NCBI GenBank assembly: GCA_001632435.1
Contig: KV424016.1
Coordinates: 55,577 to 119,576 of the forward strand
Origin: Calocera cornea HHB12733
Lineage: Eukaryota; Basidiomycota; Dacrymycetes; Dacrymycetales; Dacrymycetaceae
DNA length: 64,000 nt
Direction of reading: 5' to 3'
The position numbers and the translations under genes are program-made. The notes under the pieces are model-generated. The model was given only the letters and a program-made list of their open reading frames with translations, ran no database searches and was not told the origin of the DNA. Shown in pieces: positions 52,331-63,944 of this stretch (positions are counted from its first letter, which is position 1; every line of letters begins with the position of its first letter).

Positions 52331-52636
52331 CCAAGGTCTCGATGAAGACCCCGATCATGTTCGACGCCTTGCACGCTCCTCCGATAGGTGTCGACGACCT
52401 CCTTCGGATTCATATATTGATTCTAGCAGAGGCTAGATCTAGATCGAGATCCCTAGCGTGATTGGAATCGATTGAACTCAAAATATGCTTCCCCCCTCGG
52501 TCGCTGCTCACGTGACGGCGCGTGCCTCCCGCGCTTAACACTCGGCTTCGCTCCCAGGCGCGATGTGATATAGCACCGATTCCCCCTGGCTTGCCCTTGA
52601 TTATTTCCCTGCGCGGTAGTCTTCCTCAACTCGATC

Positions 52637-55600
52637 ATGTCCTCTCCCAGTGCCTCTCGCTCCTCTTCTTCTCGATCTAGGACTAGTGCCAGCTCTCGCG
52701 CTCTGAAGCTCAATGTCGCGCCCTCGCTCACCGAGTACAAGCGCAAGGCGCCGCGCGACCTCGTCTCCATGGACTTGTTCGCCTACGCGCGCTCCCAAGC
52801 GGCGCGCGCCCACGCGAAAGCCGGTGCCCATGCCCCTACATCCCCAGGGAAGTACACAAGAAGGCCATATACCTACTCCCTGAAGGCTCTGCGCGAGCGT
52901 CAAGGTCTAGAGCAAGCGCAGAGGGCACGCGACTTGCAAGGTTCGTCCGCTCCTCTTCCATACCACCGGACCCCTCACTCGTCTCTGTACTCTTGCAGCG
53001 GACAGCAACTTGGCTCGAGCCACCCAGTTTCTCTCTGACACGTACGGCACGCGTTACGCTGGTCTCCAGACCCCGCTACCGGACGATGACACACCTCCGG
53101 CGGCCTTATCCACGGAAGACTGGGATGCCGACTGGGTGGATGATGAAGATCAGGTGGCTGTTCAGGCCCTGTGGTCTCAGCTCGCGTGCGCCCCTTTCTA
53201 GAGCTAGCTCTAGAACTCGCGCTGACCCCCTCCCGCCAGGCACGAACCACGGGGTCACGCCCCCGGGCGGGGCGCTCATGCCCGCCGACTTCGAGAAGCG
53301 GATTCCCGTTGGAAAGCCGAAGCTCCGGCCCTCGCACGGGCCCTGCTTCAACATCGGCACAACGCACTCGGACATACAGCGACGGAGCCGCAGACTGCTG
53401 CTGGGGTGACGAGCACCCTACTCATCATTGGTCTAAGCGGTGCGCGTCTAGCTCTAGACCTAGCGCTGTCATGCTCATGCGATCTAGGTGTCAGGCAGCA
53501 GGTGTTCAGCTGCGTGAGTGCTGCCGAGAGCATTCTGGTGCACCTGGCTCGACGCGGGCTGGTGGCATGTACGCCAGAACGGCCGGAGAGCGCCTTTACG
53601 GTCGAGGTCTTGGATCTCCTGCACGCCGCACGGTTGCGTGCATACGTCTCCCACGAGGCGTTCGCTCGGATTCTCTGTGATCTGCATGGGGTCAGTCCAG
53701 TCATCTAGAACTAGAACGAGTCCTCACCGGTGCTGCAGATCCCATACCGGAAGGTGCTCAGACAGCAGCTGTCTAACGCGTATGACGCGTACGTCCTCAT
53801 ATTGCTTGAGCGCCGCCGACTCCTTCGAGATGCCTTTGGCCAAAACACTCCTAATTGGCGCCTGCTGAACGCATGCTCGGCCTGTGATTATCGCGTGAGT
53901 CTAACCCTCCTTCTCATCTGTTGATACCAATCTAGATCTAGCTCGAGGACGAGCCCCAGCTGCCCCATTCAAAACTTCTTGCAGCAGATGGCAACAACTC
54001 GTCCAAGCGTTTCGCCCGCGCGGGACACCAGGACGCACGGGTGTTTGAAAGCGACTATATCATCCCCACGGAAGAGGTCGACGAGTTCGAGGACGATGTT
54101 CATGGGCATCGGCGCAGGACGCAGGTAGGTGCCCTTGCCACTCCTAGGACGTGGTCTTGATCTAGATCTGGAGCAGAAGTCTAGCACACGAGCGGCTCCC
54201 GACATGGCCACGTCCGCAGCAGGTTCTGACACCGCGTGTACCCAGAAGTGGAAGACCTTCCAGGCGAAGGATCACGCGTCCCACTGGATGGATGGGTTGC
54301 ATGAGACCGGCAATTTCCTCTGTGTCTGCCGCCACGGCTTCGTCCTCTACTCGGTGGATATGGTCAAGTCGGGCGAACTGTGCGTAACCTTACCTTGGTG
54401 TTTGATGGCGGCTGCTCTAGCTCGAGCTCTAGAGCGAAATACCCTATCTCGTGCCTGCGCAAGCTCTTGCAAGTTTACGGCTCCGACCTCGCACTGGGAT
54501 ATGACATTGGCTGTGCGCACTCGGGCACGGTGTCGCGTAGCCAAATCGGCAGTCTCGCTCAGTCTCAAAAACTCCGGTTCTATGTCGGGGCATTCCATGG
54601 TTATGCCCACAACCGCCGGTGCCAATTGGGCTTCCATCCCAGGTTCCTCACGACCGCCGGTCTAGAGGACTTTGAAACGAATGAGCGCTTGTTCTCCAAG
54701 CAGAACTTGACCGCCCATCTTTTCCGACACTCCTCTACCTATCATCGACATCTCACTCTCGACTTTTTCTGGACGAGGTGGGATGAGGATCGACGCGCCA
54801 GCCTTGGTATGCATGTCTCCCGTTCGGGTTCTAGATCTAGAGCTAGCTGCTGACTCCTGGTTCAGCGGACTGGCTGTACGACAAGTATCGGCAAGCGCTC
54901 GAGATCGTGCGGTCTACGGCCCCCGAGGTTGAGCGCATTCAGTCTGATCACACCATCTCCGACGACGACTTTCTTGGATTCTTGGAGGAAGAGAAGTCCT
55001 ACCTCCACCGACTTCAACATGAACCCGAATCCGAGGTTCTCAGCTTCAAATATCTGGAAACCCTCAAGGCGCTCAATGCAGAAGAGTACGGCCTCCCTCC
55101 CTATGTCCACCTCAACTCACTCACTCTAGCTCTAGATCCAAGCTCAAGAACACGCAAATGGACGCGTTCTATGTCGCCAGTGCTGACCACTTTCCCGATC
55201 TCTCCGTTGATGAAGCCCAACGTGCGCGACAGCGCGACTATTTGACTGTGGTCCACGCCATCCATCGCTACAATCAGCTTGCTGTGTACTACGAAAACCA
55301 GCTCCAAACCGAACGCTGGACTCCCGAATGCCCCGAGTGGCAAACTACCGAAGCCGACCTCGGTCGTCGCGCGTACAATACTGCGCTTGACCATCTCGAA
55401 GCTCTTGTGGTTCAACGGCTGTTCGAGATGGAGAAGATGAGCTTGAGAGGGACCGGTATGCTCTAGCTCTAGATCTCGCTCTAGACCGGGAGCACTGATC
55501 GGTGAGTAGGATATGCCCTCCGAACTCACCTCGCCAAGGCACTCCGGGAGCGGAGCGAGGCCATTCGCAACGCCTTACAACGGTACAATAATCTTGCCCG

Positions 55601-56243
55601 AGACCTAAAACCGCCGCGAGCCACCCTCTCGTTCCAGGAAGTTGTTGACTACAGCTTTCTATCGGAGTTCACCCTTCTCCGACACTCACGGGAAGATATC
55701 CGGTCGAAACGGTGGTCAGACCCGTTCGTACGGGAGACCACCGTCAAATGGCTTCTGGTCCGTTGCGCTCGCACCGAGCTCAAGCGCTTGAACGTTGAGG
55801 TGCGACGGCTGTGGACCGCCATACACGACGAGCCCCAGGGGATGCTCAAGCGCATCCGGCAAGTTGATGAACAAGGTGATTGTCTTTTGGCTGCGGAGAT
55901 GTCGTCTGTGCTTGTTCGGCGTCTTCGCGTCGATGATATGCTCAAGCGTCGGCTCGAGCAGCTTTTCGCCTTGCCTGGGTTTTCTGGCCTCCGTTCCAAA
56001 GGTGTGCGCGTGCAGCCAGCACATGACCCACAGCGGGACCCGTCCGCAGAGCCAGAGCTAGATCTAGATGGAGAGCCAGCTGACATGCCTGAGCACCGTC
56101 TGGGTGATGATGCATGGCAGGTTAGCGGGTGGGATGACGGCGAAGACTTTGAGCAGGATGCTCGCGAGGAATTCGATCGTCTAGCTCTAGTGCTAGATAA
56201 CATTAGCATCGGCACGCCTGACCCCGAGTTGAACCATAACTGA
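52637..56243 (+). CDS. KDZ transposase, intact
   Basis: Eleven exons (52637-52940, 52999-53185, 53240-53430, 53488-53690, 53739-53894, 53942-54124, 54177-54379, 54433-54806, 54866-55104, 55143-55455, 55510-56243) sum to 3087 nt, 1028 residues, no stop. Residues 1-30 are a Ser/Arg-rich lead. Family blocks in order: ILVHLARRGLVACTPERPES, YRKVLRQQLSNAYDAYV, NTPNWRLLNACSACDYRLED, ADGNNSSKRFARAG (likely first catalytic Asp), ACTQKWKTFQAKD, DETGNFL-type HETGNFLCVCRHGFVL, MVKSGELAKYPI, GYDIGCAHSGT (second Asp), YVGAFHGYAHNRRCQL, LEDFETNERLFSKQN (Glu), YHRHLTLDFFW, then a helical C-terminal region and acidic tail. It is expected to excise and insert the element using the terminal repeats. Nine of its ten introns carry a CTAG cluster. 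Confidence 0.94.
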
Positions 56244-63132: not shown

Positions 63133-63272
63133 AGCAAGGGGCTAGATATAGGCAGTGTGCATAAGGACATAGGGGTGGGGGACGTAGGCGCTGATACAAT
63201 GTATGGTTTGACTATCGCAACCGCTCTGGGTCTAGATCAAGACCCAGAGTCCAGAACATGTGCCAACGACCG

Positions 63273-63721
63273 CTAACCCCAGCTATCTCCTCCAAGTTCT
63301 AGCGCGACATCGGCAAGCATCTTGAGCGGATCGGGCGGCAGGTTGTCCATAGAGTCGTTGCAATGGTCCGACGGGTCATCACCCCGAGCCTTCTTCTCCC
63401 TCCAACGCCGGACCCGTTCGAGTGCTTCTAGTTTGCGTTGGCGCGCGGTCGCACGCTTCGCAGCTTGATACTGGCGTTGGTAGTCGAGGCGATGGTCACG
63501 ATGGCTAGAGCTAGTTCAAGCGGTGGACGGGGACAGAGAGGCGAAAGTGCTCACGATTCCAAATACCGCAGCTTAGATTGCGGCACGGCAGCCTTCGCCC
63601 GTGGATGGGACGGCTTGCTGGGAGCGTGGGAGAAGGTATGGACAGAGGACAGGGCGGGGGAGCCATTGTTGGAGCTTTGGTCGGACAAGTCGGCGGTGGT
63701 GGATATATTAGAGTGCGGCAT
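63273..63721 (-). CDS. Transposon accessory protein 3, small basic protein, 132 residues
   Basis: Two exons (63721-63555 and 63504-63273, 399 nt) with a clean GTGAGC donor and a CTCTAG acceptor that belongs to a CTAG cluster. Residues 1-55 are Ser/Pro-rich. Residues about 56-95 are a long basic helix: SHRDHRLDYQRQYQAAKRAT, then ARQRKLEALERVRRWREKKA. The C terminus is acidic and hydrophobic (PLKMLADVALELGGDSWG). I do not recognise the family. The helix could bind nucleic acid. It is the only minus-strand gene in the element and points inward from the right end. Confidence 0.7.
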
Positions 63722-63944
63722 AGGAATATATAGGTTGAGCGGAGGGGGTCAAGAAGTTGATTTGGTGCAATATTCAAGAAATGAAAGCCACCGGATGCTA
63801 CCAGCGCACGTGTCGTGGCTGCATCCGAGGCTGCGAGTGCCGGAGGGGGCAAGGCAAGAGCTAGAGCTAGAGGTAGGGCGAGGGAGGAGCGAGCTGGATC
63901 GCCGCTGGAATCAGCGAACTGGTGTACGGAGCCTGATCCGCGTC
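63722..63944. promoter_or_regulatory. Right subterminal region and promoter of the small basic protein gene
   Basis: GTATATATTCC-like and AATATATCC sequence lies close to the 63721 start on the minus strand. A CTAG cluster is at about 63859-63873. No other gene was seen. Confidence 0.4.

Follow-up and report, generated by a model that had tools for sequence, protein, structure and literature searches.

The window analysed here is a 64,000-bp stretch of the Calocera cornea HHB12733 genome (C103:55577-119576; the assembly comprises 32.1 Mb in 302 contigs, denoted by C and a number), and its right-hand end is occupied by a complete KDZ transposon whose interior is filled with clustered copies of the tetranucleotide CTAG. 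This fungus is a wood-decaying basidiomycete of the class Dacrymycetes. Host sequence at positions 2001-6000 of the window is 71-75% GC, and the observed/expected ratio (o/e) of CpG is 0.97 in both the host part and the element. The features of the element are as follows, in window positions.

51801..64000, + strand: whole KDZ element, 12,200 bp (second copy with one mismatch; PF18758 in the spliced transposase)
51801..51856, + strand: left terminal inverted repeat (TIR), 56 bp, perfect inverted match to 63945-64000
63945..64000, - strand: right TIR, 56 bp, perfect inverted match to the left TIR
52637..56243, + strand: KDZ transposase gene, 10 introns, 1027 amino acids (gene model; Pfam)
58509..60289, + strand: accessory gene B, 3 introns, 540 amino acids (gene model; without Pfam match)
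61011..63132, + strand: accessory gene C, 4 introns, CALCODRAFT_485655 (gene model; annotation)
63273..63721, - strand: gene D, basic protein of 132 amino acids, 1 intron (63505-63554), CALCODRAFT_485656 (annotation; homologue searches)
52007..63870, no strand: array of 32 (CTAGNN)+CTAG clusters (pattern search; shuffles; compartment count)
Cluster starts 1-16: 52007, 52433, 52677, 53198, 53448, 53705, 53932, 54831, 55126, 55463, 56058, 56181, 56435, 56694, 57057, 57578
Cluster starts 17-32: 57762, 58179, 58482, 58747, 59047, 59395, 59829, 59928, 60286, 60922, 61303, 61569, 61799, 62815, 63505, 63861

A CTAG array fills the element

The element combines two features of the KDZ superfamily, perfect 56-bp TIRs and the PF18758 transposase domain, which the spliced transposase matches with 235.9 bits (cut-off 26.6; E 5.3e-70); CxC2 scores 24.1 bits in the same protein, under its cut-off of 27. 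Eighteen introns were modelled (10 in the transposase, 3 in B, 4 in C and 1 in D), three introns of the automatic transposase model having been corrected by frame and homology. A second copy of the element, at C238:1-12200, differs from the window copy by one base. KDZ elements produce target-site duplications of 7-8 bp (7 bp in Kyakuja, 8 bp in Zisupton); the right TIR of both copies falls exactly on a contig end, with one flank hidden by the assembly break. Beside the right TIR lies an imperfect 45-bp inverted repeat (63932-63976), which is 91% self-complementary and could form a hairpin.

The CTAG array is real, and the initial annotation, which first described it as confined to the element, is confirmed on this point: all 32 clusters lie at 52007-63870 and none was found in the remaining 51.8 kb (1-51800). 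The extent that it gave, 52422-63875, was correct in that clusters fill the element and slightly short of the actual 51801-64000. In 500 dinucleotide shuffles of the element the mean number of clusters was 0.13 and the maximum 2, and single CTAG words, of which the element has 114, averaged 45.9 (maximum 66). The expected concentration in the element relative to the genome was also borne out: the triple CTAGNNCTAGNNCTAG occurs at 22 places genome-wide, 20 of them in the two element copies (10 in each) and 2 elsewhere. The pair CTAGNNCTAG occurs at 217 places, and the window element contains 42 CTAG pairs with 6-bp spacing, the remainder of the window 0; extrapolated from these 42, about 84 of the 217 pairs fall in the two copies, that is, in 24.4 kb of 32.1 Mb. 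The extended arrays also hold related CNNG units (85 CTAG; CTGG, CCAG, CGAG and CAAG 10 each; CTTG and CTCG 7 each). The 2-bp spacers vary, being mostly CT, AT and AG.

Fourteen of the 32 clusters lie in introns (944 bp in total), 12 in intergenic DNA and 6 in exons, so that 26 are placed in introns or intergenic DNA. The statement that 16 of the 18 introns are occupied holds for two or more CTAG, the strict cluster being present in 14. For 17 introns tested against random windows of the same length (5000 draws), the random mean was 2.4 of 17 and the maximum 9, in agreement with the reported intron enrichment (binomial p = 1.4e-7 for 13 clusters in 17 introns). As also reported there, several clusters supply the splice acceptor, with a CTAG acceptor in 6 of 18 introns, and in the example introns inspected the clusters sit between donor and branch point. 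The interval of 200-350 bp reported initially has to be revised to a mean of 382 bp with a range of 96-1019, and the first cluster starts 206 bp inside the left end. This tiling is more even than random (coefficient of variation, CV, 0.53 vs 0.95), a degree of evenness reached by 0 of 5000 and 1 of 5000 random placements in two tests; part of it may stem from the introns, because these are themselves spaced.

Private words in other KDZ clades

The initial annotation had treated the array as a peculiarity of one element, a view that has to be given up: most KDZ elements examined here carry a clade-specific word. PF18758 has 51 matches in the genome (PF18759, the Plavaka domain, has 74), from which we excised 30 KDZ loci of about 3.4 kb, representing 28 elements (two with two loci each) and including several near-identical copies. 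The comparison covered KDZ elements, with host windows and dinucleotide shuffles as controls. In 25 of 30 loci the best palindromic hexamer scored above every one of 21 control windows; for the best hexamer of any kind this held in fewer loci (17 of 30), high scores being found in GC-rich host windows too. Against control-based expectations, the enriched words are TCTAGA (44 in the element vs 1.0), TCATGA (104 vs 7.8), CANTG (320 vs 47 in C233, C147 and C79; 193 vs 27 in C8), TCNNGA (236 vs 45), ACGT (172 vs 52), CGTACG (31 vs 5), GCCGGC (57 vs 13.8) and CTGCAG (47 vs 6). The last class, CTGCAG/TGCA, was downgraded, much of its TGCA being explained by CpG-to-TpG decay. A more stringent test took dinucleotide shuffles of the locus itself as reference and left aside three near-identical copies and C64; here 19 of 24 loci beat the best of 15 host windows (z 5.2), each scored with its assigned word or the hexamer form, words that had been picked from the same data.

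Two of these classes are strictly periodic: word, 2 bp and word again is found 42 times for CTAG (1.1 expected) and 77 times for CATG (3.0). With a 2-bp spacer CANTG shows a weaker excess (30 observed, 9.0 expected; 32 observed, 5.6 expected); GCNNGC has 37 vs 3.9, and TCNNGA and ACGT show none. Long simple CCAG runs occur at several places in the GCNNGC-class elements L027 and L028. The CATG triple CATGNNCATGNNCATG is present at 195 places genome-wide vs 26 for its reverse, and among 50 forward places listed, 42 belong to the elements of C12 and C13, the remaining 8 lying outside them. CANTG triples occur at 59 places vs 2 reversed; among 50 forward places listed they are mostly outside KDZ-match contigs and many are simple repeats, and the CANTG class therefore rests on counts within elements and not on arrays. 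In C35 the words are restricted to the interval that its imperfect TIRs enclose (198634-208497), and in C34 the CATG clusters end before 75000. Like the CTAG element, the C34 element is evenly tiled (CV 0.38; 0 of 5000 random placements as even).

Conservation was assessed in the CATG elements, four of six copies being aligned, with mutual identities of 66-80%. Within clusters, 855 of 926 comparisons of CATG bases show identity (92.3%), against 212 of 297 (71.4%) for the 2-bp spacers of the same clusters and 2443 of 3836 (63.7%) for the flanks; as aligners favour repeated words, the contrast between word and spacer inside the same clusters is the safer figure. Whole CATG words are kept in 186 of 229 cases in clusters and in 95 of 219 outside them, while 18 control tetramers are kept in 13-53%, and the clusters stand mostly at identical alignment columns across the four copies. 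Candidate introns surround 27 of 29 CATG clusters, in a GT-AG search that was centred on the clusters and hence biased. The intron at codon 603 is shared with a related clade and carries a different word there: three CTAG in C103, three CANTG in C233 and three CANTG in C8. The exonic cluster at 62815 encodes LDLALD, and the homologous Calocera viscosa protein has LDLELD there, in a poorly conserved stretch, which as judged from that one protein is compatible with CTAG having been kept while the spacers changed.

The words follow the transposase phylogeny. On a tree of 25 elements, 10 word labels require 9 changes, which is the minimum. Transposases that are 71% identical (C3 with CGTACG, C273 with GCCGGC) can go with different words, and among C103, C10, C233, C8 and C35, whose transposases are 45-58% identical, all words differ except that C233 and C8 share one. 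The CTAG array thus has real, clade-specific counterparts in other KDZ clades, and the pattern of conservation makes the words look selected at the DNA level.

Candidate reader proteins

The initial annotation had named the basic 132-residue protein as a possible binder of the array, and this guess gains support, since relatives of D were found only in CTAG and CATG elements. Over 132 residues D is identical to a hypothetical protein annotated in Calocera cornea HHB12733, and a single-sequence AlphaFold2 model predicts a long basic helix (mean predicted local distance difference test score 73.6). A genome search with the D exon of C103 retrieved C103, C238, C34, C82 and C13, and one with the D exon of C34 retrieved C34, C82, C12, C13, C81, C103 and C238; these searches score best candidates only, and at E 0.1 they gave no further relatives elsewhere in the genome. 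D is thus present in 2 of 2 CTAG and 5 of 6 CATG elements, and was not found in C42. In 7 of 7 elements it lies at the opposite end from the transposase and convergent with it, and its aligned core reads RQY...KR...RQ...EAL.R.RRW. D is common to these two types of element, although their transposases share only about 25% identity. D is therefore a good candidate, and the best we have, for a reader of the period-6 words CTAG and CATG.

Protein C is a second candidate. Its relatives in the genome are in C10, C199, C147, C225, C79 and C8, at loci that carry CTTG/CGAG/CTAG (C10, C199) or CANTG (C147, C225, C79, C8), and a protein search with spliced C retrieved its annotated form and, over the full length, the 67%-identical protein P0003 of Calocera viscosa. 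The N-terminal part of C is predicted as a long helix with short helices, and may be helix-turn-helix-like as judged by eye and from weak matches. A Foldseek search of the N-terminal exon against the PDB gave nothing at E <= 0.001 (best E 2.9), and a PDB sequence search with it gave nothing meaningful. With its last exon as query, relatives of B were found in the two element copies only. Pfam scans of the transposase, B, C and D gave no match to DUF1985 or DUF287, the VANC domains.

A family-specific address and its possible purpose

The idea of a distributed DNA-level address is upheld by these data, in that the words are palindromic, tile coding sequence as well as introns and the DNA between genes, are missing from the window's host sequence and are replaced by other words in other clades. 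The DNA address itself, with its array, clade specificity, even tiling, word conservation and co-occurrence with D, is well supported by direct observation. We propose that the elements of every KDZ clade are labelled along their entire length with a palindromic word peculiar to that clade, and that a protein encoded by the element reads this word. CTAG units (CTAG plus 2 bp) would be tiled about every 380 bp, mostly where coding permits, in introns and intergenic DNA. D would read the period-6 words, with CTAGNNCTAG and CATGNNCATG as proposed targets, and the palindromic form and constant phase of the words suggest that it would probably bind as a dimer or oligomer. The protein would then coat the element and protect that family, and no other, from methylation or silent chromatin, as in VANDAL/VANC. 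Overall, we put the probability that the words form a family-specific address read by an element-encoded protein, most likely for anti-silencing or self-recognition, at roughly 50%.

The VANDAL/VANC system of Arabidopsis Mutator-like elements is the closest working model, and it is by this analogy that we infer an anti-silencing purpose. Family-specific short motifs are found across a DNA transposon there too, often in tandem (PMC5735166, PMC10398659), VANC21 motifs being located in introns, between genes and in terminal regions, and those of VANC6 being different (PMC5735166); related families thus differ in motif, and protein and target evolve together. The systems differ in that VANDAL is a plant Mutator element with non-palindromic motifs of 8-9 bp, whereas the fungal KDZ elements have palindromic words of 4-6 bp at 6-bp phase, encode no DUF1985 or DUF287 match and are known here from sequence. 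Fungal KDZ elements carrying TET/JBP are likewise thought to escape methylation-based silencing (PMC12730594); they encode a dioxygenase, for which the four scanned proteins of our element have no Pfam match. The active KDZ1 of Cryptococcus (PMC12810828) resembles the present element in length (about 11 kb), KDZ core and TIRs; it also has a CxC domain, for which the present transposase has a CxC2 match below cut-off, and differs in its 241-bp TIRs and 8-bp target-site duplications. We found no description of word arrays in KDZ elements in the open-access literature, subscription papers lying outside that scope.

The genome provides a setting in which silencing could act. C5-methylase matches are present in C104 and C177, and two TET/JBP matches are both below cut-off. 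The KDZ locus of C8 (L026) is strongly decayed (CpG o/e 0.16, TpG/CpA 1.72), which is compatible with methylation or with mutation resembling repeat-induced point mutation, and CpG o/e is 0.45-0.51 in C13a and C40a. The low ratios suggest methylation-driven decay of some KDZ copies, and the combination of CpG-depleted copies with methylase genes is what methylation of part of the copies would lead one to expect.

Several observations weigh against the proposal. The CTAG and CATG elements themselves are without CpG decay (o/e 0.91-0.97 for the elements, 1.0 for the C103 locus), so silencing has left no mark on them. D has no meaningful Pfam or PDB match and was undetected by search in the other word classes, each of which would therefore need another reader. 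Those classes are dispersed and often exonic and do not form strict arrays, and among the triples listed, those of C12 are no more evenly spaced than random. The CTGCAG, C10 and C186 classes are weak or failing: C40a, C13a (CTGCAG 4.3), C10, C204 and C186 failed the shuffle test, C186 has no palindromic word above control, and C10 has none either, only CAAG/CTTG and some CTAG. Finally, the reversed-pattern control of the CTAG triple occurs at 74 places, more than the 22 of the triple, because the reversed triple reads GATC arrays; many of these places probably lie within CATG elements, whose arrays read CATGATCATGATCATG.

The main rival to anti-silencing is a function in transposition, with internal sites for the transposase or an accessory protein that serve synapsis, compaction of the 12 kb or target immunity against self-insertion. 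Tiling over the entire element and clade-specific words that follow the transposase tree would fit such a role, and target immunity would need sites along the whole element. In CACTA/Spm elements, repeated short motifs are bound by the element protein TnpA; those motifs are subterminal, however, whereas the CTAG clusters cover the whole element including introns (52007-63870 of 51801-64000). Moreover, across distantly related transposases the type of word goes more closely with D than with the transposase itself, and we regard a transposition function as the less likely of the two.

We judge a neutral origin of the words, through slippage, biased repair or mutational decay, to be less probable by a clear step. 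Simple CCAG runs in some GCNNGC elements, the inflation of TGCA and part of CANTG by CpG-to-TpG decay, and the often simple tandem nature of CANTG triples outside KDZ contigs all point in this direction, but CATG is kept while its spacers vary, spacing is even, seven word classes are still enriched relative to dinucleotide shuffles, and different words exist side by side in one genome. Recognition by the host, with the words as sites of host silencing or modification factors, appears more doubtful still. Host methyltransferase genes are present, but a separate host factor would be needed per KDZ clade, elements would be expected to lose such sites, and the words have no shared base context; a single host modification was rejected on this last ground. 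Least probable is the suggestion that clusters aid recognition of short introns, which the occupancy of introns and the CTAG acceptors favour and which is weakened by the 18 of 32 clusters outside introns, the palindromic nature of the words, the lack of clusters in the host part of the window, the related elements that keep introns with another word and the density of words in exons in the dispersed-word classes.

It falls a little short of even odds, in our estimate, that KDZ transposons generally carry selected, tiled palindromic address words, each with a co-evolving element-encoded reader (D in the period-6 classes, across transposases about 25% identical), as an independent fungal counterpart of VANC. 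Should this hold, DNA transposons of a large group in fungi would possess a code of self-identification that is legible in the sequence itself, with many classes of word in a single genome, and sequence-specific self-marking of transposons would have arisen beyond plants and in a further superfamily. The related proteins and their matching target words would provide a panel for studies of DNA recognition, and the evasion of silencing by fungal transposons would become directly testable.

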